From assembly GCF_003481705.1 (NCBI RefSeq), contig NZ_QULN01000007.1:29485-93484 (forward strand): DNA of 64,000 bases. The letters are read 5' to 3'. The position numbers and the translations under genes are program-made. Numbering within the stretch: the first letter of the stretch is position 1; the number at the start of each line of letters is the position of its first letter. Below are positions 3,415-64,000 of the stretch, one piece after another. The stretch comes from Butyricicoccus sp. OM04-18BH (GTDB lineage Bacteria; Bacillota; Clostridia; Oscillospirales; Butyricicoccaceae). The notes beneath the pieces were generated by a model. It was not told the DNA's origin. It worked only from the letters and a program-made list of their open reading frames with translations, and did no database searches.

Positions 3415-4353
3415 ATGTGCAGTTTATTTGGTTTAATTGATTTCAAGGAGTGTCTCAGCACTCACACGAAAAATAAAATTCTAAACACGTTAGCGCGTGA
3501 ATGCCAAATCCGTGGCACGGACGCGACCGGCATCGCCTATAACTTCAACGACCGCCTACGGATTTACAAGCGCCCCCTTCCCGCTCGGAAAATGAAAATT
3601 CATATTCCGCATGGCGTGAATGTGGTAATGGGACACACTCGTATGACTACACAGGGCAATGCGCAGTTTAACCAGAACAATCATCCGTTCCTTGGTCATG
3701 TTGACGGAAACAGCTTTGCGCTTGCTCACAACGGCGTTCTCTGGAACGACAAAGAGCTGCGCGCAGAAGAAAATCTGCCGATGACGAGTGTGGAAACGGA
3801 CAGCTACGTTGCGGTTCAGCTTCTTGAACAGCAGAAAACCCTCGACTTTGACAGCCTTAAAACCATGGCTGAAGCGGTCGAGGGTTCGTTTGTCTTTACG
3901 GTGCTGGATAAGGAGAACGCTATCTGGTTCGTTGTCGGGGACAATCCGCTCTGCGTGATGTTCTATGATGGCTTTCTGATTTATGCTTCCACGCAGGAAA
4001 TCCTCTGCAAGACGCTGAAAAAGCTGCGGTTAAAAGCGCCATCCGATATTCTGGAACCGCAGGAGGGCGAAATTATGAAAATCAACCGCAACGGCCGTAT
4101 CACTACCGGCACATTCACGCCGCATACGACATTCGAGCACTGGTGGCGAAAATATCCGTTCTACCGCAGCTACTACGAGGACACGCCGACTAGTTATGAC
4201 GATCTGTTCAGCGTGGCGAAAGCATTCGGCGTAACTGCCGACGAGGTGCAGGCGCTTCTCGACTACGGCTGCTCGGAAGAGGAAATCGAGGAAATGCTGT
4301 ACGACCCGGAACTCTTTCACGAGATGACCGGCGAACTGCTCTATGCGTACTGA
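3415..4353 (+). CDS. Stand-alone class II glutamine amidotransferase (Ntn-hydrolase)
   Basis: The protein has 312 residues. The ATG at 3415 is preferred over the one at 3409: GAGGAGG ends 7 nt before it, and it gives MCSLFG, so removal of Met exposes Cys2 as the N-terminal nucleophile. Other GATase-II landmarks are RGTDATG (33-39), GHTRMTTQGN (73-82), NNHPF (88-92), LAHNG (103-107) and ETDSY. These resemble the glutaminase half of GlmS, PurF and AsnB, but no synthase domain follows. The last 70 residues are acidic and probably helical. The expected reaction is glutamine to glutamate plus ammonia, which would feed the adjacent amidoligase. Pairing of the two families is known from phage and mobile-element loci. 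Confidence 0.85.
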   Translation: MCSLFGLIDFKECLSTHTKNKILNTLARECQIRGTDATGIAYNFNDRLRIYKRPLPARKMKIHIPHGVNVVMGHTRMTTQGNAQFNQNNHPFLGHVDGNSFALAHNGVLWNDKELRAEENLPMTSVETDSYVAVQLLEQQKTLDFDSLKTMAEAVEGSFVFTVLDKENAIWFVVGDNPLCVMFYDGFLIYASTQEILCKTLKKLRLKAPSDILEPQEGEIMKINRNGRITTGTFTPHTTFEHWWRKYPFYRSYYEDTPTSYDDLFSVAKAFGVTADEVQALLDYGCSEEEIEEMLYDPELFHEMTGELLYAY

Positions 4354-4372
4354 TTGAAAGGAGGCGATGCGC

Positions 4373-4459
4373 ATGATTGCACTCGGCCCAATCTTTCAGG
4401 CCGTCGGCGCAGTGGTTGATCTCATCATCGAGGCCGTCGAGAACTTTTCGGATGACTGA
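4373..4459 (+). CDS. Micropeptide 1, 28 residues, hydrophobic with acidic C-terminus
   Basis: This short frame has an excellent ribosome site (AAAGGAGGC) 7 nt before an ATG at 4373; an in-frame ATG at 4367 is too close. The peptide begins MIALGPIFQAVGAVV, continues DLIIEAV and ends ENFSDD. It has no Cys, Lys or Arg, so it is a hydrophobic, probably amphipathic helix with six acidic residues towards the end. It lies 19 bp after the amidotransferase and 14 bp before a second peptide of the same character. It could be a substrate of the amidoligase pair, a membrane-active peptide or a leader peptide. Coding is supported by the ribosome site and operon position only. Confidence 0.5.
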   Translation: MIALGPIFQAVGAVVDLIIEAVENFSDD

Positions 4460-4473
4460 AACGAGGTGAAAAT

Positions 4474-4548
4474 TTGAACCCAGGCAAAATCATTCTCGGC
4501 GTGCTGACTGTCATCAGTCTGCTTGCCGATATCATCGATAGCGATTGA
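4474..4548 (+). CDS. Micropeptide 2, 24 residues, hydrophobic with acidic C-terminus
   Basis: A TTG start at 4474 is preceded by GAGGTG with 5-nt spacing. The peptide begins MNPGKIILGVLTVI, continues SLLADI and ends IDSD. It shares its design with micropeptide 1: a short hydrophobic stretch, a D-I/L-I-D/E step and an acidic end. The non-ATG start and short length make this less certain than its neighbour. Spacing in the operon is compact (14 bp from the previous stop), and about 75 bp follow before the HTH gene. Confidence 0.4.
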   Translation: MNPGKIILGVLTVISLLADIIDSD

Positions 4549-4623
4549 CTATCTAATGAATGTATTCTTTCGCGCTATGTATAGTAATTCAAAGGCGTAC
4601 ACCTATAAATAGGAGGAAAATCC

Positions 4624-4968
4624 ATGTTCAATACACTCAAACAACGCCCTGAAATGCTTTCTGCCAACGACCTGCTGGAGATCTTCCCGATCTCTCGCAG
4701 CGGCATCTACGACCTGCTCCGTGAGCCCGGCTTTCCGTGCATCCACCTCGGCCGTCGTATCATTGTGCCGCGCGACGCGCTTATTGATTGGTTGGAAAAG
4801 CGTATGCAGGAGGACTTGAAAGAACTCAATACGCATGCAACTTCGCCGGCAGCTGATTGTGAAGAAGTCTCGCGCCAAATTGTCAAACCTCATGAAACCA
4901 TCGCCTGCGACGATGGCCTATATATCGAACTTCTGTCTCAGGACACAGACGGAGCCAGTGTAATCTGA
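4624..4968 (+). CDS. Excisionase/MerR-type helix-turn-helix DNA-binding protein (copy 1)
   Basis: The protein has 114 residues with AGGAGG 8 nt before the ATG. Residues 10-60 form an excisionase-family winged HTH: MLSANDLLEIFPISRSG, IYDLLREPGF, then HLGRRIIVPRDALIDWLEKR. The family usually binds DNA as a directionality factor or local regulator. Residues 10-52 are identical to the protein at 10270-10626, the middle differs, and the tail converges again (DGLYIELLSQD here, DGVYIKVLSRD there). It is the last gene of the amidoligase operon and is followed by a strong terminator. It probably regulates this operon or island excision. Confidence 0.8.
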   Translation: MFNTLKQRPEMLSANDLLEIFPISRSGIYDLLREPGFPCIHLGRRIIVPRDALIDWLEKRMQEDLKELNTHATSPAADCEEVSRQIVKPHETIACDDGLYIELLSQDTDGASVI

Positions 4969-4987
4969 TTATTGGCAGAATAGCGAT

Positions 4988-5015
4988 AAGGGCATGCGTG
5001 TATGCATGCCCTTTT
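4988..5015 (+). terminator. Intrinsic terminator of the amidoligase operon
   Basis: AAGGGCATGC (4988-4997) pairs perfectly with GCATGCCCTT (5004-5013) over a 6-nt loop and runs into TTTT. A related GCATGC hairpin follows the paralogous HTH gene at 10644. Confidence 0.85.
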
Positions 5016-5059
5016 GTTCTGTCATCCTCTTTTTTCTAGGTCTATCAGATTTAGGTCTC

Positions 5060-7096
5060 CTACTTAACTCGACATAAGACATCTCGAAGCCTAAATAATT
5101 TCTCTTGACTCTCCTTATACATAGTTGTTTGCAGTTTTTCCTCTAACAACATTTCAGGGAAATATTTACCTCGAAGTTGAAATGGCCGTGCTACATCATT
5201 TGAATACGGATATTCTGGCACCGAAATTGACTTCTCGGATGCTTTGCATTCTTTCAGACACCGACTCAGGAAATCTGAGTGAAAGCCATTATACCACGGA
5301 AGCGAACGCTGTTGTCTGTATTCTCGCAACCACCTCGGATGCAATTTAATCTGCCGATCAATATAATGATTCCAGCTTTTGTTCTCTAACAATGCATCTT
5401 GATCTTTCATCCAACGAAAGACTTCACTATGAGAGGGTTCTGCTTCTGGAAAACCCCAAATATCAAAATCGATCTCATTGTCCCAGCTTTCTACAAAACG
5501 TTCAATACGCCACCTATCCGCTGCATAGCTATCCGGGCATCCGTCAGTATCGATCATATAGGCGGCATTGTATCCCGTCATGTCACAAAACAAAGCGTCC
5601 CATGCTTTGGATATCGCATCAGCTGACAGCTTATCCCGCAGTTCAAATATATCCAAATGTGACAAAAAAAGCTCTCGCAATCGAATATAGAGCCCAATAT
5701 CCAGTCTGTCCCTGCTTGTAAACTTTCCGGATAGCGGTCTCGGTGCGCAGCACTCGTTCAAATTCCACGGTTTGCTGACAAACGACCTCAGTTGATGTGT
5801 ATCAGAATGCAGCATGGAATATACCACAAGCGGCGCGAGCGGGATATTCGCCTGTATCGCAAACAGATTGCTGTTGCACGCAAATTCGCATACCTGCAGC
5901 GCCGCCTCTTCACTCCACTCGATTTGCTTGGATTTACGATAAACTATTCGCGTCAGCGCATCGTGATACACTTTGACTATATTTCGCAGCTTCAAACTGG
6001 CCTCACGCAGCGATGTATCCTCAACAAACCCATCCAAAGGCCATTGTTTAAGCATAAATCGTGATGCATCATACTGTAATCTCGTTTTTTTGCCATATAA
6101 TAAGCAGGCGTCTATTTCCGTCAGATTCTTTATAATCTCCCCATGATTTTCAAAAATCTTCTGTTGTATATTTGCTGTATTCAGAAACTCATCTGATTGC
6201 CAATGAATCGATGGATTTTTCGGCAGCAATTCAATTTGTCCGCAAGAAAGGCGATTATCACGAAGCATCGCGTGCCGTATCGTCCGTCCATCCATCGTCT
6301 GTATGAAAACGCGCACCACCTTGCGAAGTAAATCCTCTACTGTAGTGATTCCATAATAGAAATGCTCCACTTGCAGCTTGCCTGATAGTTGCTCCGTAGT
6401 AATCCCTAACTGTTCTGTTAACCTTTGAAACAACTGGTACTGATTTCGTAAGTTCGGTCTTTTCTGCATAAATTGCCGAACCGCTGCACGCATCCCACTC
6501 GTCAATTTCTGAACCGTCAAATCGCAGATATTTCCTACTGCTTGATATATCTCTTGCACACGATGTACTCGCTGCAGTACACGCTTGGGCAGATGCTTGC
6601 TCGCCAAATTATCGTCTTCAAGGAAGGAGGCTGTTCCCGAAAAGAACGTCGCTGTATCTGTATCCACACCTAAGCCAATCGCAAAGTCCAAGGCGAATGT
6701 ATAATCCCTCTCGGCATATCGAAAAATATCGCCTCGATTTAAGTAAATCTCAGAAAATGACCATTGATCTTCGAGCCGCCACGGATCACTCAATTCGTAA
6801 AACAGAAACGTCCCTTGCCGGATCACATCAACAAATATCTCCTGCATTTTCTTCGATTTATCCTTATATTGATTCATTGTGTCAATCAGAGCGTGCGGCG
6901 AATAGATAATGCTGCACAAATCAGCATCTGGAAAGATTTTGGTAACGCGCTGCACGAAATGACGGCGCACCTCCTGTGCCGCATTCTCCTGTTTTGGCGA
7001 GGCCCTTTTTACTTTTCGTGTTTTTTTCGTGACGAGCTGCAAAAAACTATCGCCCTCCGCTGCACGTCTTACGTCAGTGTAAATACCTGCATCCAT
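5060..7096 (-). CDS. Large protein of unknown function in the island
   Basis: The protein has 678 residues; the ATG at 7096 is preceded by GGGGAG with 8-nt spacing. I do not recognise a family. There is no signal peptide, no obvious membrane segment, no P-loop and no clear nuclease or protease motif. The N-terminus is basic (TKKTRKVKRASPK) and the rest is rich in aromatic, charged and Leu residues, consistent with a soluble, mainly helical protein. Base composition is clearly lower in GC than the core genes to the right, a sign of transfer. It is transcribed away from the helicase operon, with a 279-bp shared upstream region, and converges on the HTH terminator at 5015. Its company (helicase, two HTH paralogues, integrase) suggests a mobile-element or defence role, but this is unproven. 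Confidence 0.7.
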   Translation of the reverse strand: MDAGIYTDVRRAAEGDSFLQLVTKKTRKVKRASPKQENAAQEVRRHFVQRVTKIFPDADLCSIIYSPHALIDTMNQYKDKSKKMQEIFVDVIRQGTFLFYELSDPWRLEDQWSFSEIYLNRGDIFRYAERDYTFALDFAIGLGVDTDTATFFSGTASFLEDDNLASKHLPKRVLQRVHRVQEIYQAVGNICDLTVQKLTSGMRAAVRQFMQKRPNLRNQYQLFQRLTEQLGITTEQLSGKLQVEHFYYGITTVEDLLRKVVRVFIQTMDGRTIRHAMLRDNRLSCGQIELLPKNPSIHWQSDEFLNTANIQQKIFENHGEIIKNLTEIDACLLYGKKTRLQYDASRFMLKQWPLDGFVEDTSLREASLKLRNIVKVYHDALTRIVYRKSKQIEWSEEAALQVCEFACNSNLFAIQANIPLAPLVVYSMLHSDTHQLRSFVSKPWNLNECCAPRPLSGKFTSRDRLDIGLYIRLRELFLSHLDIFELRDKLSADAISKAWDALFCDMTGYNAAYMIDTDGCPDSYAADRWRIERFVESWDNEIDFDIWGFPEAEPSHSEVFRWMKDQDALLENKSWNHYIDRQIKLHPRWLREYRQQRSLPWYNGFHSDFLSRCLKECKASEKSISVPEYPYSNDVARPFQLRGKYFPEMLLEEKLQTTMYKESQEKLFRLRDVLCRVK

Positions 7097-10269: not shown

Positions 10270-10626
10270 ATGTCTATTTTTGCCAGCATCAAGAATAAGC
10301 CCGAAATGCTTTCCGCCAACGACCTGCTGGAGATCTTCCCGATCTCTCGCAGCGGCATCTACGACCTGCTCCGTGAGCCCGGTTTTCCGTGCATCCACCT
10401 CGGCCGCCGTATCATCGTACCGCGCGACGCGATGATCGAATGGCTTGAGAACCGTCTGCAGGAGGAGCTGAACAGCGCCGCGAAGAGCAGAGAGCCTACC
10501 GAGGTATCTGCTGCGCCGGAGACTGCGTCCGAAGCAGACACCGACCTGCCGGAGACCCAGGTCCGCGAGGACGGCGTTTACATCAAGGTTCTCTCCCGCG
10601 ACGCGAAGAAGCCGCAGGCGATTTGA
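10270..10626 (+). CDS. Excisionase/MerR-type helix-turn-helix DNA-binding protein (copy 2)
   Basis: The protein has 118 residues with AAGGAGGA before the ATG. It is a full-length paralogue of the protein at 4624-4968. The DNA block 10303-10431 matches 4651-4779 with only five differences in 129 bp, all silent third-base changes, so 43 residues of the HTH are identical. The linker has diverged and is rich in Ala, Glu and Ser; the tail keeps the DGVYIKVLSRD pattern. It closes the helicase operon as copy 1 closes the amidoligase operon. The two proteins may bind the same sites and co-ordinate both operons. Confidence 0.8.
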   Translation: MSIFASIKNKPEMLSANDLLEIFPISRSGIYDLLREPGFPCIHLGRRIIVPRDAMIEWLENRLQEELNSAAKSREPTEVSAAPETASEADTDLPETQVREDGVYIKVLSRDAKKPQAI

Positions 10627-13602: not shown

Positions 13603-13956
13603 TGGTGGAGCCGAGGGGAGTTGAACCCCTGTCCGAAAGCGCATCCACAAGGACTTCTCCGGGCGCAGTTTGTCGATTAAGATTCCCGCCGCGGTACGCC
13701 GGCAAACAGGCTTACCGTTTTGGTAGAGTCATGTTACATGACGGAGGCAACTCTTACCCCGTACACGTTCACCACTGATCGACGCCGGGTCTCTGGGCCG
13801 TGGTCCTCCCTGAGCCGACGGGCTAAGCCTAATTAGGCAGCCTGAAGAGTATAATTGTTGTTGTTTAATTTATAAACAGTTGGAGCTTTTATCGCAGATC
13901 CCCGCTGCGGCCCGCTATCCCGGCTTCAACGCCCCCGTCGAACCCGTTACGGCCCC
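13603..13956 (-). ncRNA. ssrA: Transfer-messenger RNA (tmRNA)
   Basis: The minus strand begins GGGGCCGTAACGGGTTCGAC and ends GGCTCCACCA. The 5' GGGGCCG pairs with the 3' CGGCTCC as acceptor stem, and GGTTCAACTCCCC forms the T-arm; the length is about 354 nt. The tag reading frame ends GCT GCC TAA at 13833-13841 and reads backwards as NNNNYTLQAA; the exact resume codon is uncertain (a TAAAC precedes the second AAC). It tags proteins on stalled ribosomes for proteolysis. smpB, its partner, lies 17 bp upstream on the same strand. The 3' end is adjacent to the island integrase and is the inferred attachment site. Confidence 0.95.
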
Positions 13957-25314: not shown

Positions 25315-25367
25315 GTACCCAGAGTGAGCGGCGAGCCGCTCTTCCCCATCGCAAAACCGAATACCAT

Positions 25368-25490
25368 GTTCTTCAGGGCAGGGTGAAATTCCCTACCGGC
25401 GGTAAAGCCCGCGAGCGAGTGTCGATTTTCGGCATGAGCATGATCTGGTGAAACTCCAGGGCCGACAGTAAAGTCTGGATAAAAGAAGAA
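25368..25490 (+). ncRNA. FMN riboswitch (RFN element)
   Basis: The classic sequence blocks are present in order: TTCTTCAGGGCAGGGTGAAA, TCCCTACCGGCGGTAAAGCC, GCGAGCG, GATCTGGTGAAACTCCAG, GGGCCGACAGTAAAGTCTGG and AAAAGAAGAATG, whose end pairs with the TTCTTC start. It binds FMN and represses riboflavin synthesis. A terminator at 25584 completes the expression platform. It lies upstream of ribD-ribE-ribBA-ribH, as in many Firmicutes. Confidence 0.97.
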
Positions 25491-25583
25491 TGCACGGAAA
25501 GCGTTTTCCGTTTATTTACTGTTCTGAAATGTCGCTTGATGTTTCAGATTTTTTGTTTTTACGACAAATCCACTGCATTTTCC

Positions 25584-28632: not shown

Positions 28633-29094
28633 ATGAAGGTACTCGAAGGAAAACTGGTAGCAGGCAAGGGCAAATTTGCGATCGTTGGCGCACGCTTCAA
28701 CGAATTCATCGTCTCCAAGCTGATCTCCGGTGCGGAGGACACGCTGGTCCGCCACGGCGTAGACACGGACGACATCACGCTTGTCTGGGTTCCGGGCGCG
28801 TTTGAGATTCCGCTGGCAGCACAGAAGCTCGCGCAGAGCGGCAAGTATGACGCAGTCATCTGCCTCGGCGCGGTCATCCGCGGCTCGACGAGCCACTACG
28901 AGCTGGTATGCAGCGAGACGGCCAAGGGCATCGCGCAGGTCGGCCTCCAGACCGGCGTACCGGTAACGTTCGGCGTTATCACGACCGAGAACATCGAGCA
29001 GGCGATCGAGCGTGCCGGCACGAAGGCAGGCAACAAGGGCGCAGACGCGGCGATGGCGGCGCTCGAACTCTCTAACCTGCTGCCGCAGCTTTGA
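28633..29094 (+). CDS. ribH: 6,7-dimethyl-8-ribityllumazine synthase
   Basis: The protein has 153 residues. Conserved blocks: [72 protein letters not shown] and [12 protein letters not shown]. It condenses the RibD and RibBA products to the lumazine, usually as a 60-subunit shell or pentamer. It is the last gene of the operon; a family A repeat starts 3 bp after its stop codon. Confidence 0.97.
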
Positions 29095-29096
29095 GT

Positions 29097-29379
29097 CTAA
29101 GGGGGACGCTGTCCCCCTTAGATACGCCCCCGGTTTCTCCGGAACCGGGGGCGATAACCCCCTCGCCCCTGCACAGCAGGGGCGGCTCGGGACACAAGGT
29201 GAATTGCCCCGAAGGGGCAAGAGAAGGTGCCCTGGGGTACGCGTCCCGAGGCAGCGGAGTAAAAGTCAGGTACACGCCCCGACTTTTACGGGGAATTTTA
29301 CGCGGCCTGCTGCGGCAGGCCTGTCCGCCCTCCCTGCCGAAGGCAGGATTGGGCGGAAATAGCGCCCCTTCGGGGCGCT
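29097..29379 (+). repeat. Structured multi-hairpin repeat, family A, copy 1
   Basis: This is an array of hairpins joined by conserved strands: CTAAGGGGGACGCTGTCCCC, GATACG, the stem CCCCCGGTT/AACCGGGGG, the stem CGCCCCTG/CAGGGGCG, the conserved GGTGAATTGCCCCGAAGGGG and GAGAAGGTGCCCTGGGGTAC, GTCAGGTACACGCCCCGAC, GGCCTGC-TGCG-GCAGGCC, CCTGCC-GAA-GGCAGG and AGCGCCCC/GGGGCGCT. Copy 2 at 34745 has the same order with compensated stem changes. It lies in the 3' region of the riboflavin operon. Confidence 0.8.
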
Positions 29380-29520
29380 TTCCTTTTACCCGTAGGGCGG
29401 GATGACTTCATCCCGCCGTCCGACAAATCTGCAAACACTCTCCGGAACAGGAAAAGGCACGCCAACGGCGTGCCTTTCTTTACCTTATATAAATGTATGA
29501 GCGCAAACGTTTGCGACAGC
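29380..29520. other. Spacer with hairpins between repeat A1 and the TIM-barrel gene
   Basis: It contains one strong hairpin (GGCGGGATGA with TCATCCCGCC, 29397-29418) and the terminator at 29453. No gene is seen. Confidence 0.5.
29453..29477 (+). terminator. Terminator after repeat A1
   Basis: AAAGGCACGCC and GGCGTGCCTTT form a perfect stem over AAC, followed by CTTTA. An almost identical hairpin follows repeat A2 at 35038. It also serves the convergent minus-strand gene. Confidence 0.8.
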
Positions 29521-30450
29521 TTATTCGATATTCAGAGCTTCGCGCAGAACATGCAGGCTTGCAAGGTGGCCGTCGAGCATGGAAAGCGTCAGATCCTCCA
29601 TTTCGAGCGAAACCTCCTCGTCATAGCCCGACATACGGACGACCGAGAAGAACTCCTTCCACCACTTCGCATCATGGCCCGCGCCGACGGCGACATAGTT
29701 CCACGCGCGGCGTGCAAAGGCGTCGATCGGCTTGGTATCCAGCATGCCGTTCGGCTGCCAGTACCGGCGCTCCGGGCGCGAATCCTTGCCGTGGATATGA
29801 TAGATCGCGCCGTGCTCGCCGAGCACACGCGCCGCCTCGATCGGGTCGCCGCCCATCCAGAACAGATGGCTCGGGTCGAGGTTCATGCCGACCATCGGGC
29901 CGACCGCCTCGCGCAGGCGGAGCAGCGTCTCCGGATTATACACAAGCTGCATACCGTGATTTTCGAGCGCGATCCGCTCGATGCCGCAGTCCTCCGCCAT
30001 CTTTACGATGTCCTTCCATACCGGGATCGCGACCTCATTCCACTGATAATCGAGGATTTCCTGCGTCTCGGGCGGCCACGAGGTCGTGATCCAGACCGGA
30101 GTCTTATCGCCCCTGCATCCGGCCGGCAGGCCGCTCATCATGACGATTTTCTTGACGCCGAGCATCTGCGCGAGCTCGAACGTCTTTTTCGTGACGTCCA
30201 TTTCCTTTTCATAGGCGAGCGGATTGCCCGAGCAGTTGAGCGCACACAGCTCGAGGCCCTTCGCGCGCATCGCGTCATACCATTTTTCCCGCGCGGTCCT
30301 GTCGCTCACGAGCAGGTCGAGGTCGCAGTGCGGCGCGCCCGACCAGTTGCCCGTGCCAATCTCGATCGCGGCTATCTTCTGAGATACGCAGAAATCAAGC
30401 ATCTCCTCATACGGCATATCTAATGTGCAGGTCTTAATGGCCAGTTTCAT
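29521..30450 (-). CDS. Sugar phosphate isomerase/epimerase, xylose-isomerase-like TIM barrel
   Basis: The protein has 309 residues with no signal peptide. It follows the AP-endonuclease-2/IolE-type pattern: KTCTLDMPYEEMLDFC, GTGNWSGAPHCDLD, GLELCALNCSGNPL, metal ligands in IALENHGMQL (Glu), VGMNLDPSHLFW (Asp, His) and YHIHGKDSRP (His). Such proteins isomerise, epimerise or dehydrate sugars and inositols. It is divergent from the ABC uptake operon and close to a Gfo/Idh/MocA dehydrogenase, so it probably belongs to the same catabolic pathway. The exact substrate cannot be told. Confidence 0.85.
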   Translation of the reverse strand: MKLAIKTCTLDMPYEEMLDFCVSQKIAAIEIGTGNWSGAPHCDLDLLVSDRTAREKWYDAMRAKGLELCALNCSGNPLAYEKEMDVTKKTFELAQMLGVKKIVMMSGLPAGCRGDKTPVWITTSWPPETQEILDYQWNEVAIPVWKDIVKMAEDCGIERIALENHGMQLVYNPETLLRLREAVGPMVGMNLDPSHLFWMGGDPIEAARVLGEHGAIYHIHGKDSRPERRYWQPNGMLDTKPIDAFARRAWNYVAVGAGHDAKWWKEFFSVVRMSGYDEEVSLEMEDLTLSMLDGHLASLHVLREALNIE

Positions 30451-30926
30451 TTTGACTTTCCTTCTCTCGTTCTTTGCTGTTTGGATCTTCAGAGGGAGAT
30501 GCGCGTTTTTCGCAGGACTTTTCTCACAAAAAAGCGCAGACTCCCCCCTGTTTCATCAAGGCAATTTTACCATACTGTAACCTGAATATGCAAGAGATAA
30601 TCTCATAATATGCCCAAATTCTTCCCTCTCATACCTCGAAAAACTGCGAATTATGTCCAGAAAAGTGTCAATTTGCACAATGCACAGATGGCGGTTTTTA
30701 TATCCTCGATACGTTATTGTCAACCTGCACAAAGCGTCAGGGGCATTCCTCGCCATTACCGACAAAATTGTCAACAACCCCTTGTCAAACAGTATTCTTT
30801 GCATTAAAATATTACCAGAACGTTGGAGCGTTCGTTATACCGCATCAGGCGGTGAAACCGAATGACAGACTGACCGGCCCTTTTCGGTGTGGACAGACTG
30901 TACGAAAAAGGAGAGAGGTTTTTATT
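30451..30926. promoter_or_regulatory. Divergent control region of the sugar cluster
   Basis: There is no gene. On the minus strand TTGCAT (30588-30593) and TAAAAT (30564-30569) with 18 bp form a promoter for the isomerase. On the plus strand TTGTCA (30782-30787) and TAAAAT (30805-30810) with 17 bp form a promoter for the binding protein. Between them TGTCAANNTGCACAA occurs twice as direct repeats (30666-30680, 30718-30732), candidate regulator sites. Confidence 0.6.
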
Positions 30927-31943
30927 ATGAAGAAGAGATTACTTGCTATGCTGATGACCGGCGCTATGGTTGCAAGCCTCGCAGCTTGCGGTGGCGGTTC
31001 CACTGGCGGCGACACCAAGACCGGCGGCGACACCAAGACCGGCGGCGATACCGCTTCTGGCTGCTCTGTTGACGTCATCCTGAAGACCACCGCTTCCGAG
31101 TACTGGAGCTACGTTAAGGCCGGCGCAGAGGCTTACAGCAAGGATAACCCGGACGTACAGGTCGAGGTTAAGGGCGCTACCTCCGAGACCGCTTACGACG
31201 AGCAGCAGAACATGATCGAGACCGACCTGAACTCCGGCGCTTACGACGCATTCGTAATCGCTCCGCTGCAGGCTGATCTGGTTAAGACCCTGATCGCCGG
31301 CAAGACCGACCCGATCATCGCTGTTGACACCAACATCGACGCTCCCGAGGTACTTTCCTTCGTCGGTACCGGCAACGAGGATGCAGCTGCAATGGGCGGC
31401 AAGGCTGCTGTAGAGGCTGCTAAGGCTGCAGGCTGGGATAAGGTTCAGGCTATCGCAATTTCCGGCGTACAGGGCGACGGCACCGCTATGGCTCGTCTGA
31501 ACGGTTACGAGAAGGGCATCACCGAAGCTGGCGGCGAGTTCCTGAAGGGCGAGATCCAGTACGCTGACGCTGTTGCTGATAAGGCTGCAACCTCGATGGA
31601 AGCTATCATGCAGAACCATCCGGATGGCGTTGCAATCATCGTCTGCAACAACGACGATATGGCAATGGCAGCAGCTCGCGCAGCAAAGGGCAACGCAGCT
31701 TACGCGAAGACCATCTTCGTTGGCTTCGACGGCATCCAGTCTGCATGCAACGCTATCCTCGCTGGCGAGGAGACCATGTCCGTTGCACAGGAAGCTTACG
31801 ACATGGGCTACAAGGCTGTTGAGGCTGCTGTAAAGGCTGTTAACGGCGAGACCCTGGATAAGTTCATCGACTCCGGCTGTGACGTTATCAACAAGGATAA
31901 CGCTCAGAAGCGCCTGGATACCCTGAAGGGCTACATCGGCTAA
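30927..31943 (+). CDS. Sugar ABC transporter substrate-binding lipoprotein (RbsB family)
   Basis: The protein has 338 residues from the ATG at 30927 (AAAGGAGAGAGG before it). The signal MKKRLLAMLMTGAMVASLAAC carries a lipobox LAAC, so the mature protein is a lipid-anchored surface receptor. A Gly/Thr/Lys linker contains three GGDT units. The rest is periplasmic-binding type 1: VDVILKTTASEYWSYVKAGA, FVIAPLQADLVKTL, PIIAVDTNID, ISGVQGDGTAMARLNGY, IIVCNNDDMAMAA and IFVGFDGIQSACNAI. Codons are strongly biased (GCT, GTT, GAC), unlike neighbours, which suggests very high expression. Confidence 0.93.
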   Translation: MKKRLLAMLMTGAMVASLAACGGGSTGGDTKTGGDTKTGGDTASGCSVDVILKTTASEYWSYVKAGAEAYSKDNPDVQVEVKGATSETAYDEQQNMIETDLNSGAYDAFVIAPLQADLVKTLIAGKTDPIIAVDTNIDAPEVLSFVGTGNEDAAAMGGKAAVEAAKAAGWDKVQAIAISGVQGDGTAMARLNGYEKGITEAGGEFLKGEIQYADAVADKAATSMEAIMQNHPDGVAIIVCNNDDMAMAAARAAKGNAAYAKTIFVGFDGIQSACNAILAGEETMSVAQEAYDMGYKAVEAAVKAVNGETLDKFIDSGCDVINKDNAQKRLDTLKGYIG

Positions 31944-32010
31944 TCAACAGGCGTTTTTTAGTACGCGAGTGGTTTTCCATTTGTTCTTAGCATTTAAGTG
32001 AACGAGAAGA

Positions 32011-32049
32011 AACCCCTGCAAGATTTGAACAGGATCTGATGCAGGGGTT
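32011..32049 (+). terminator. Hairpin between binding protein and ATPase genes
   Basis: AACCCCTGCA (32011-32020) pairs with TGCAGGGGTT (32040-32049), followed by CTCTTTTC. It is probably a partial terminator or RNA stabiliser that keeps the binding protein in excess over the membrane components. Confidence 0.6.
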
Positions 32050-32214
32050 CTCTTTTCGAAGAGTAAGTTTTCGATTTTTCGAAAAAGTCATTCTCCCGCG
32101 AGACGAGATCGGCAGGAGCTATTGTTGCGGCAAACCTCCTCCTTTTTGCAACTGAACCGAGAACAGTTTACTTTGTCCCGCACTTCATCTCGGAGAAGAA
32201 AAGGTGATATGCAA

Positions 32215-33712
<1,498 letters not shown>

Positions 33713-33720
<8 letters not shown>

Positions 33721-34696
33721 ATCGAAGAAATCCAGCAATTTGATGACTTATGCTGGTACGTTTGGCGCACTGGTAATCCTTTGTGTAGTTCTGGCAATCG
33801 CATCGCCGAACTTCTTTAAGTATTCGAACATGATGTCCATTCTCAAGCAGACGTCGTTCAATGCACTGGTTTCCACCGGCATGCTGCTCTGCCTGATCAC
33901 CGCCGGCATCGACCTTTCCGTAGGCGCTAACGCAACGTTCGCAGCCTGCCTCGCCGGTATGCTGATGAACAAGGGCATGACCAATCCGGTCGTTCTTCTG
34001 CTCGTCGCAATCGTCGGCGGCACCCTGATCGGCTGGGTCAACGGTATGCTCCTCACCCGTCTGCACCTCCCCCATCCGTTCGTATCTACCCTCGGTATGA
34101 AGAACGTACTCTGGGGCGGCGCGCTGATCGTTACCAACTCTCAGATGGTATCCTTCTCCGGCAATGACGCTGTTATGTGGCTCGGCTCCGCTACCGTAGG
34201 CGGCTTCCCGATCTCCTTCATCGTTGTTATCGCGATCTACATCGTAATGCACATCCTGCTGACCAAGACCGCTCTGGGTCGTTCCATCTACTGTGTAGGC
34301 GGCAACCCGGAAGCAGCTCGTCTGTCCGGTATCAACTCCGCTAACGTGCTGACCTTCTGCTACACCCTGTCCGGTTTCATGGCAGCTCTGGCTGGCATCG
34401 TATCCATCGGTCGTTCCGGTATCTGCAACGGCGTTAACGCTATTCAGCCGTACGATACCGACGCTATCGCAGCCTGCATCATCGGCGGCGCATCCTTCAT
34501 GGGCGGCAAGGGCACCATGGTTGGTACCATGCTCGGCGCTCTGATCATCGCAGTTCTGCGTAACGGCTTCTCGCTGCTGTCCGTTTCGTCCGCAGTTCAG
34601 AACCTGGTTCTCGGCCTCGTTATCATCGGCGCCGTACTGCTCGACGTTACCCGTGAGCGCATGGAAGCTAAGGCTCGCCGTCTGGCTACCAAGTAA
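33713..34696 (+). CDS. Sugar ABC transporter permease (RbsC family)
   Basis: The protein has 327 residues with about 8-10 membrane segments. Family blocks: TGMLLCLITAGIDLSVGANA, NPVVLLLVAIVGGTLIGWVNG, TLGMKNVLWG, GRSIYCVGGNPEAARLSGIN (cytoplasmic EAA-like loop) and CIIGGASFMGGKGTMVG. It is expected to dimerise and pair with the ATPase upstream. Strong codon bias, as in the binding protein gene. The substrate is unknown but probably ribose-, inositol- or related-type by context. Confidence 0.94.
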
Positions 34697-34700
34697 AACG

Positions 34701-34740
34701 CAAGAAAAAAAATCGCTGCTTCGGCAGCGATTTTTTCTTG
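34701..34740 (+). terminator. Terminator of the sugar ABC operon
   Basis: CAAGAAAAAA-ATCGCTGC pairs with GCAGCGAT-TTTTTTCTTG over a TTCG loop, a very strong intrinsic terminator 5 bp after the stop. Confidence 0.92.
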
Positions 34741-34744
34741 CTTG

Positions 34745-35036
34745 TATCCAAGGGGGACGCTGTCCCCCCTGGATACGTTTCCGGTTCCGAAGAAACCGGA
34801 AACGATACCCCCCTCTCGTCCGCACAGCGGACGAGGCCGCGCCGCCGCAAGGTGAATTGCCCCGAAGGGGCAAGAGAAGGTGCCCTGGGGTACGGCGCGG
34901 GCAGAGGTAAGAAAGTCAGGTACACGCCCCGACTTTCTTGGGGAATTTTACGCGGCGCACTGCGGTGCGCCTGTCCGTCCTCCTTGCCGAAGGCAAGATC
35001 GGGCGGAAATAGCGTTCCATGCAACGCATGGAACGC
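34745..35036 (+). repeat. Structured multi-hairpin repeat, family A, copy 2
   Basis: It has the same module order as the copy at 29097. The linkers are nearly identical (GGTGAATTGCCCCGAAGGGG, GAGAAGGTGCCCTGGGGTAC, GTCAGGTACACGCCCCGAC). Stems are different but still paired: GTTTCCGGTT/AAACCGGAAAC, CTCGTCCGC/GCGGACGAG, GGCGCAC-TGCG-GTGCGCC, CTTGCC-GAA-GGCAAG and GCGTTCCATGC/GCATGGAACGC. It lies downstream of the ABC operon in the same direction. Confidence 0.8.
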
Positions 35037-35037
35037 G

Positions 35038-35064
35038 AAAAGGCACGCCAACGGCGTGCCTTTT
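35038..35064 (+). terminator. Terminator after repeat A2
   Basis: AAAAGGCACGCC and GGCGTGCCTTTT form a perfect stem over AAC. The core is identical to the hairpin after repeat A1. It is bidirectional, so it can also end the LacI gene. Confidence 0.8.
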
Positions 35065-35088
35065 CTTTCGGGAAGATTTCGCTTTTTC

Positions 35089-57029: not shown

Positions 57030-57223
57030 ACCCTCCCCTGTGGGGAACCGCAGCATTCGCTGCGGCATCAAATCGGCACACGAAGTGCGCCGTAAAAACC
57101 CGCGACATGCGCGTGGGTTTTTACACCCCGACTCAGCGCCCGTGGGGCGCGTCGTTCGGGTATCGAAAAGCGGTTTCTACGGAACCGCTTTTCGTATATA
57201 GGGGGCTTTTGAAGCCCCCTATA
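57030..57223 (-). repeat. Structured multi-hairpin repeat, family A, copy 3 (divergent)
   Basis: Read on the minus strand it starts TAGGGGGCTTCAAAAGCCCC and ATATACG, then GAAAAGCGGTT-CCGTAGAAACCGCTTTTC-GATACCC, homologous to copy 2's GTTTCCGGTT-CCGAAGAAACCGGAAAC-GATACCC, followed by CGCCCCACGGGCG and further hairpins (ACGGCGCACTTCGTGTGCCG). The middle conserved linker of copies 1 and 2 is missing. It lies between ilvC and ilvD in the direction of transcription. Confidence 0.6.
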
Positions 57224-57249: not shown

Positions 57250-58299
<1,050 letters not shown>

Positions 58300-60550: not shown

Positions 60551-60838
60551 AAAAAAAGCCTTCATCTCTTTATAAAGAGACAAAGACTTACTCTGCGGTA
60601 CCACTCTTTTTGCCCTGTGCGCCGTGCGCACAAAGCCGCTCGTTCCGATCCTTTAACGCTGATCCTGCGGAGCAGATTACGCCTGGGCCCTGTTTCATCC
60701 CATTTCACCTGCCCGGCTCCCGGAGGACTTTCGCTCTTTCCTTTCCCCACCGTCTTTCACCGACCGACGGCTCTCTCTAAAGGGGCTTCGGGACGCTACT
60801 TTTCCATTCATCGCCGTTACCTTTTTATTGAAGTGTTA
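60551..60838 (-). promoter_or_regulatory. T-box leader of the ilv operon
   Basis: On the minus strand the T-box core AGAGTGGTACCGCAG is at 60593-60607, preceded by a long structured stem I region (AAAAGTAGCGTCCCG, AGAGAGAGCCGTC, GGTGAAAGACGGTGGGG) and followed by a terminator hairpin (AGTCTTTGTCTCTTTA with TAAAGAGATGAAGGCT, then TTTTTTT). It senses uncharged tRNA and allows read-through. The specifier codon could not be assigned; CUC (Leu) and GUC (Val) are candidates in GCGAAAGTCCTCCGGGAG. Confidence 0.92.
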
Positions 60839-63869: not shown

Positions 63870-64000
63870 TCACGATACAGGCACTGCCGCGCGGCAGCGC
63901 GCATGAAAAAGCGTTTGCTGCGCAAACGCATCAAAACCGGGGGCGTGTACCTCGGTTTTGATACTTTAAGAGGGAGAAAGTTTCCGTATGGGAACTTTCG
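63870..64000 (-). repeat. Structured multi-hairpin repeat, family A, copy 4 (partial, cut by edge)
   Basis: On the minus strand it reads GAAAGTTCCC-ATACGGAAACTTTC, then CAAAACCGAGGTACACGCCC-CCGGTTTTG, matching the GTCAGGTACACGCCCCGAC module of copies 1 and 2 with a different paired stem, then GCGTTTGCGCAGCAAACGC and a GCGCGCTGCCGCGCGGCAG hairpin. The 5' part lies outside the window. Confidence 0.6.

Follow-up and report, generated by a model that had tools for sequence, protein, structure and literature searches.

A REP-like palindromic repeat behind genes of Butyricicoccus and its relatives, and a 45-nucleotide module nested in its hairpin tip

Single-strand transposons of the IS200/IS605 type (IS, insertion sequence) have hairpin ends and leave no target duplication. 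The nearest parallel to the repeat described here is provided by the repetitive extragenic palindromic (REP) sequences of Escherichia coli and the related bacterial interspersed mosaic elements (BIMEs). These are intergenic repeated palindromes, some of which lie near stop codons, in open reading frames (ORFs) or in longer palindromes: a passage of PMC12306157 places 446 of 4,072 E. coli REPs no more than 15 nt from the stop codon of an upstream gene, and one of PMC3733652 describes REPs lying within ORFs and REP dimers enclosed by longer palindromes. The latter source, in other passages, includes Rickettsia palindromic elements (RPEs), present in frame in protein genes, and miniature inverted-repeat transposable elements (MITEs) such as NEMIS and ERIC, which are non-coding, repeated, located beside genes and co-transcribed. 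Our subject is a repeat, family A, and a second element nested in it, module M, both found in a stretch of 64,000 nucleotides (referred to as the window) from Butyricicoccus sp. OM04-18BH (contig NZ_QULN01000007.1, positions 29,485 to 93,484, forward strand), where an earlier note had drawn attention to multi-hairpin repeats of about 290 bp.

Family A shares with REPs and BIMEs its closeness to upstream stop codons (see below). It differs from them in being composed of six or seven different palindromes in fixed order, with conserved linkers, over 200-290 nt, in its counted maximum of 27 per genome (with at most 35 candidates scored in each), and in having neither a GTAG/CGTC start tag nor any link that we found to a RAYT (Y1) protein. 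Module M resembles RPEs in its in-frame copies but is 43-46 nt long, with two tandem hairpins and fixed linkers, was met chiefly in Clostridia and favours the tips of hairpins. In contrast to MITEs, no target-site duplication was seen at M, and the ends of family A are not resolved to the base. In contrast to IS200/IS605 elements, no enzyme is linked to M, which terminates directly at its second hairpin. Among the titles and abstracts listed we found no paper on either element, which does not establish their absence from print, and short sequence strings of both led, in the 15 listed of 41 papers, to work unrelated by title. PMC8040213 describes candidate RNAs in the thousands from human microbiomes, with 250 of 3,161 palindromic, and its tables could hold family A.

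On balance, and with considerable reserve, we think it probable that family A and M are nested, non-autonomous, REP-like mobile DNA whose palindrome arms are kept matched in the DNA itself. Family A would be an array of six or seven near-perfect palindromes of about 200-290 bp which inserts, or persists, just past stop codons and mostly in the sense orientation. The perfection of its stems would stem from quasi-palindrome correction, from recognition of DNA hairpins by whatever moves it, or from both, rather than from a selected RNA helix. M would be a second, independent element, inserted without target duplication into the tip of family A hairpin S4, the tips of unrelated palindromes and some coding sequences. 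Transcribed some 5 nt past a stop codon, the array would be expected to form a stable mRNA structure and may, like some REPs of E. coli, delay termination or decay. What we observe directly is the repetition, the covariation, the substitution spectrum (with one control), the bias in position and orientation, the empty sites and the nesting; palindrome correction, single-strand transposition and any effect on expression are what we infer.

The two full copies in the window can be aligned from end to end with 84% mean column identity; the differences in their stems preserve pairing and their linkers are near-identical, as the earlier note had described. Both fold better than dinucleotide shuffles (copy 1, z -9.1, 0/200 as good; copy 2, z -10.8, 0/100). 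A point absent from that note is that the 290-bp unit is composite: a separate 45-nt double-hairpin module, M, lies inside the tip of S4. The M sequences of the two copies are identical despite their differing surrounding stems, which suggests that M came to this one spot later or that gene conversion took place. A covariance model, R1, built from 13 relatives without M, matched the window at 29096 (117.9 bits), at 34747 (100.9 bits) and, on the minus strand, at 57089-57223 (51.2 bits), with two weak matches on the opposite strand, at the S1 palindrome of each full copy (copy 1, 24.0 bits; copy 2, 21.4 bits). Of the two divergent relatives proposed earlier, the first is a related copy, copy 3, in which S1, S2, S5 and two further hairpins were located; the piece at 63870 was not matched by R1 and holds nothing beyond S5/S6-like hairpins.

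A DNA search with copy 1 matched 29 of 87 Agathobaculum-family genomes (at most 8 candidates scored per genome), mostly in separate blocks covering query bases ~5-105 and ~104-150, a first sign that the repeat is composite. R1 matched 30 of the 87, with up to 27 copies in one of them (at most 35 candidates scored per genome). For the alignment, 88 sources (drawn from 60 regions around listed matches, of which G009:C1:2096-3000 was left out, and from further loci and the window) gave 92 matches and 91 distinct rows, representing 90 places since L259 contributes two overlapping opposite-strand rows. Copies of the A2 subtype in seven loci (L274, L322, L324, L329, L333, L334 and L276) mostly lie directly behind a GTCGA..TCGAC-type hairpin. 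The comparison with Rfam proposed in the earlier note gave no match at gathering level at the window copies, and a lax search (E<=10) of the copy 1 region returned 18 weak matches, all far under threshold; a known RNA family was rejected as an explanation on this ground.

Covariation in family A is strong. Across the 91 rows, pairing holds in 97.2% of pair cells and 39 of the 44 pairs show two-sided compensated changes, with a covariation score of 0.548 against 0.144+-0.006 for shuffles (0/500) and 0.03-0.11 for slid controls. These figures lean towards structure because the rows were aligned to the model and the sequences are related, and kinship alone can beat shuffles without structure. Paired covariation, the absence of which would have spoken against the earlier note, is nevertheless borne out. 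The note had gone on to conclude that covariation implies a selected folded RNA. DNA palindromes would give the same excess of compensated changes over shuffles. A selected RNA helix should, however, tolerate G.U above A.C, whereas a palindrome maintained as DNA should treat both alike. The G.U cells of family A are concentrated in two pairs, 110-168 (commonest type U.G) and 222-240 (21 cells). Leaving both aside, there are 3435 Watson-Crick cells, 21 G.U, 42 A.C and 58 others; without the U.G pair 110-168 only, the count is 42 G.U to 42 A.C. Our one control was the flavin mononucleotide (FMN) riboswitch as it occurs in this genome family, for which 30 loci and the window supplied 28 distinct sequences with 8 variable pairs. 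It gave 20 G.U to 3 A.C over 27 pairs, and family A differs from it with a Fisher p of 1.6e-3 (42:42) or 1.6e-5 (21:42). The step from covariation to a selected RNA thus finds no support here outside the two pairs. A CCCC/GGGG pseudoknot in S5 was considered and dropped, as several relatives have no GGGG.

Copies at the same gene junction point in a similar direction. Two-sided changes outnumber one-sided changes that remain paired by 792:103 at rplW-rplB, 411:29 at infB-rbfA and 33:0 at iscS-iscU, counted over sequence pairs and not as events, and the other four junctions tested show an excess in the same direction. Concerted change of both arms is the expected product of hairpin-templated quasi-palindrome correction; it could also come from strong selection or from exchange between copies.

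Family A is closely tied to the ends of genes. A simple gene caller placed the gene preceding the copy on the same strand in 76 of the 91 rows and on the opposite strand in 12, leaving 3 undecided. Of the 76, 65 begin -5 to 15 nt from the upstream stop codon (median 5), and an independent check found a same-strand stop codon within 30 nt in 62 of the 91 rows. The binomial p of 1.6e-12 for 76 against 12 is too strong, as related copies are counted as independent; of the 52 junction groups, 40 hold sense copies alone and 6 antisense copies alone, 3 hold both and 3 are undecided. The copies start mostly with TCTAAGG, TCCAAGG, TATAGGG or TCTAGGG. Among junctions, named by eye from the protein sequences, rplW-rplB recurs with 13 copies, infB-rbfA with 11 (rbfA called in 8), frr-uppS and thiI-cinA with 4 each, and iscS-iscU, iolB-iolD, ctsR-mcsA and cdsA-dxr also recur. 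In the window the three copies that can be assessed follow ribH, an ATP-binding cassette (ABC) transporter permease gene and ilvC on the same strand, as the earlier note had observed, and its idea of a mobile non-coding element fits the behaviour of the family, which lies behind genes and mostly in sense.

These positions also speak for a rival reading, in which family A is a functional mRNA element, an intercistronic or 3'-untranslated RNA selected for its fold and steering termination, decay or expression of the next gene. The sense orientation of 76 of 88 determinable copies, their starts next to stop codons, their persistence at operon junctions and the near-complete pairing of their stems are all as such an element would have them. 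The balance of G.U and A.C outside two pairs argues against it, as do the antisense copies at the very same junctions: both orientations occur across species at infB-rbfA, rplW-rplB and iscS-iscU. In the window, copy 2 lies downstream of its operon's own terminator, a point absent from the earlier note. Moreover, the ribH loci of relatives are without family A: R1 had no match at E<=1e-3 in 30 loci drawn from 48 genomes matching ribH, although the contig of L381 stops at the gene and the reading of the stop codon overran the gene in several loci. In L353, the closest relative (ribH 87% identical), a plain terminator follows the ribH stop; the window ribH shares 87% identity with the gene of G001, the Agathobaculum butyriciproducens genome that contains locus L002. 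The lack of family A at these ribH loci and its two orientations at single junctions count in favour of mobile DNA. We regard a functional mRNA element as possible but rather doubtful.

Several observations weigh against mobile DNA with arms matched as DNA. When all 44 pairs are counted, G.U cells number 106 and A.C cells 42, and the FMN control is small. The main caution is that an alignment of family A by MAFFT/RNAalifold gives 69 G.U, 42 A.C and 132 other mismatches; given the 69 to 42, the substitution spectrum, which suggests a better fit to palindromic DNA than to an RNA helix, does not settle the matter. Neither the sense bias nor the closeness to stop codons is demanded by a purely DNA-based explanation. 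Family A is also much inherited in place, since the nearest relative of 33 of 53 junction rows is at the same junction in another genome (9 in the same genome, 11 elsewhere). In G009, a single 4.0-Mb contig, 12 of 14 copies are oriented like the gene and 10 of 14 like the leading strand as judged by GC skew (two opposite-strand matches overlapping the 626226 copy being left out); both copies at genes opposed to the direction of replication follow the gene and not the fork, and two further copies follow neither. Replication-strand bias as the source of the sense bias is not favoured, as fork-opposed copies follow the gene, in small numbers. Finally, no mobilising enzyme was found among Y1 transposases, the one kind searched for, in the 87 genomes.

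The earlier note had given every copy a terminator at its 3' side. The scan lists sites behind copy 1 (with a second downstream at 29453-29477) and, on the minus strand, near copy 3 and the fragment (56996-56963, 63929-63911 and 63847-63820); the site behind copy 2 was read by eye and is unlisted by the scan. Terminator-like sites are at chance level between 28000 and 36000 (9 against 7.9+-3.5) and exceed it between 56500 and 64000 (13 against 6.2+-2.3).

Module M is 43-46 nt long and consists of two hairpins joined by purine-rich, nearly invariant linkers in the order B-AAGGTGAATT-hairpin-AAGAGAAG-B'-hairpin. In a collection of genome contigs, 17 stretches contain a 23-mer taken from copy 1, nine from a Lutispora metagenome-assembled genome (MAG), five from A. 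butyriciproducens and one each from a Halioglobus MAG, a Candidatus Faecalibacterium MAG and Flavonifractor An10, with about 45 nt constant across differing surroundings. The Halioglobus copy (L011) is in a contig labelled gammaproteobacterial and may reflect true spread or mis-binning. A 22-mer with up to 3 mismatches was found at 1 to 21 places in each of these five genomes, and its reversed pattern at none. M is patchy, as stricter gapped patterns matched 2 of 291 genomes at class level (both known already) and 10 of 345 at order level. No match at E 1e-5 came from collections of plasmids or of E. coli; one record was found in a phage collection and two among viral contigs. Chance matches were removed at window 60360 and in L134, L160, L173 and L236, the last four reducing 48 distinct forms to 44. 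In these 44 the two hairpins covary, with 92.6% of cells paired and a score of 0.379 against 0.149+-0.014; 8 pairs have changes on both sides, a count reached in 42 of 500 shuffles. The base at -1 is part of M: of 51 distinct forms, 49 pair it with a base inside M (C:G 36, G:C 11, T:A 2), which fits the pairing of a Y1 guide to its flank and an intramolecular pair of M alike. Pairing of position 37 with the last base was rejected, being broken in all 14 forms with a non-G at 37; in 13 of them position 37 pairs with base -1.

The sites occupied by M form 22 groups (60 sites) or 20 groups (66 sites), depending on the grouping rule. In 22 host groups the flanks of M pair with each other more stably than re-dealt flanks (-10.2 against -7.0+-0.54 kcal/mol, 0/302), so M tends to sit at hairpin tips; flank pairing is slight in a few contexts (L078, L090, L113 and L068). 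Where empty and filled sites could be compared, in an Agathobaculum REP, a Lutispora repeat and a CATGT hairpin, they differ by the unit alone, and the target-site duplication that a MITE would leave was not seen. In the S4 tip of family A, the empty form GGGACACGTGTCCC is one base off the filled flanks and GGGACACGCGTCCC (L049, L059) differs by none. By eye, G032 carries M reversed between S2 and S3 of family A-like repeats. M also stands in frame in two protein genes. An ABC exporter reads FSY-[15 codons]-EKDEVLHG, and its relative in G040 reads FAYNEEEVLHG with exactly 45 nt fewer. In a cytosine methyltransferase the insert is present in 3 of the best 120 of 7,986 homologues, including the query's own 100% match and one that is 99% identical; 110 of these 120 match the pattern of an uninterrupted site and 7 match neither pattern. 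A phage contig (L078) was discarded as an empty-site case for M, as its relatives differ by a larger block that allows no clean comparison.

Other repeats were also seen, some of them hosts of M. A palindromic repeat with several arms, TTGAACGAGACTT...GTTCAGTGATAAA, occurs in the Lutispora MAG (L001, L003, L004, L005, L006, L009, L010, L015 and L016), and at two distinct sites within it M may be present or absent. L289, L290, L348, L115, L076 and L064 share a further family of hairpins whose centre is conserved (CCGGGAGCATGTATCACGG and relatives) and which M targets in some genomes. At ~4300-5500 of the L078 phage contig, ETAVSWG / GAIPGACAGE-type peptides recur in several ORFs, apparently another repeat element.

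M may be among the smallest elements to insert precisely: some 45 nt, made of two hairpins, non-coding, targeting hairpin tips in single-stranded DNA or in RNA, and riding on a host repeat tied to stop codons. Its movement would be due to some enzyme or to reverse splicing followed by copying back. We hold this fuller proposal to be doubtful. A separate rival reading, in which family A and M derive from IS200/IS605- or RAYT-type elements and are moved on single-stranded DNA by a Y1 transposase, would account for hairpins with preserved foot sequences, the lack of target duplication and the preferred bases at the insertion point near tips. Y1_Tnp is present in 31 of the 87 genomes (29 above cut-off), and in 5 of the 30 with family A (one below cut-off) against 26 of the 57 others (p 0.009), so a resident Y1 enzyme is not likely to drive family A; nor was it found at E<=1e-3 in seven carriers of family A or M (G001, G010, G012, G015, G017, G029 and G032). 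We consider derivation from Y1 elements unlikely. No tnpB/iscB-type protein was recognised by eye in the 24 largest groups of flanking proteins, for which no profile search was made. That M is immobile, a conserved RNA or protein-binding motif spread inside hairpins by recombination among REP-like repeats, would suit its near-invariant purine linkers, covarying stems, paired base -1, look of a folded motif and mostly palindromic contexts, yet is quite improbable given the in-frame copies in the exporter and the methyltransferase, where relatives have an uninterrupted site, and the reversed copy in one genome.

The features of the window are collected in Table 1. It also holds a transfer-messenger RNA (13603-13956, minus), an FMN riboswitch (25365-25494, plus) and a T-box leader (60573-60820, minus). 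Two 173-base stretches, 4648-4820 and 10300-10472, are 90% identical and lie inside small ORFs (4624-4968 and 10270-10626); their spacing (5652) nearly equals that of family A copies 1 and 2 (5650-5653).

Table 1. Positions in the window of family A, module M and adjoining features
Feature	Position	Strand	Remark
Family A copy 1, full	29096-29357	+	starts 1 nt past ribH stop codon
Copy 1, S1-S3	S1 29096-29122; S2 29125-29153; S3 29165-29183	+	
Copy 1, stem S4	arms 29186-29194 / 29242-29250	+	
Module M (45 nt), copy 1	29195-29239	+	nested in S4 tip; relatives without M read GGGACACGCGTCCC or GGGACACGTGTCCC there
Copy 1, S5-S7	S5 29259-29289; S6 29304-29321; S7 29324-29357	+	
Terminator-like hairpin behind copy 1	29361-29387	+	T-rich tail; scan site 29361-29379
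GTAG-tagged REP-like palindrome behind copy 1	29389-29417	+	so labelled for its likeness to the GTAG class of PMC3733652
Intrinsic terminator between permease stop codon and copy 2	34707-34736	+	scan
Family A copy 2, full	34745-35036	+	
Copy 2, S1-S3	S1 34745-34775; S2 34776-34804; S3 34815-34835	+	
Copy 2, stem S4	arms 34837-34847 / 34893-34900	+	
Module M, copy 2	34848-34892	+	in S4 tip; same sequence as in copy 1
Copy 2, S5-S7 and extra hairpin	S5 34910-34938; S6 34954-34971; S7 34974-35007; extra 35012-35036	+	
Terminator-like hairpin behind copy 2	35038-35068	+	read by eye; absent from scan list
Family A copy 3, subtype A2	57048-57223	-	without M; 26 nt past ilvC stop codon
Family A fragment	63886-63963	-	shares S5/S6-like hairpins only
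Fragment hairpins	S5-like with AGGTACACGCCCCC loop 63929-63963; S6-like 63911-63929; further 63886-63902	-	
ribH (lumazine synthase)	28633-29094	+	upstream of copy 1; Pfam PF00885, 203.8 bits
ABC transporter permease (BPD_transp_2)	33713-34696	+	upstream of copy 2; Pfam PF02653, 126.1 bits
ilvC (ketol-acid reductoisomerase)	57250-58245	-	upstream of copy 3; Pfam PF07991, PF01450

Compensated changes in bacterial hairpins do not alone prove a functional RNA, and the comparison of G.U with A.C offers a simple test of the strand on which pairing is maintained. The empty and filled sites found across genomes provide a comparative system for the entry of tiny elements into hairpin tips and proteins, one that also bears on why palindromes cluster past stop codons. 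If M is indeed an inserting element, it would be one that leaves no target duplication and can add 15 in-frame codons to protein genes.

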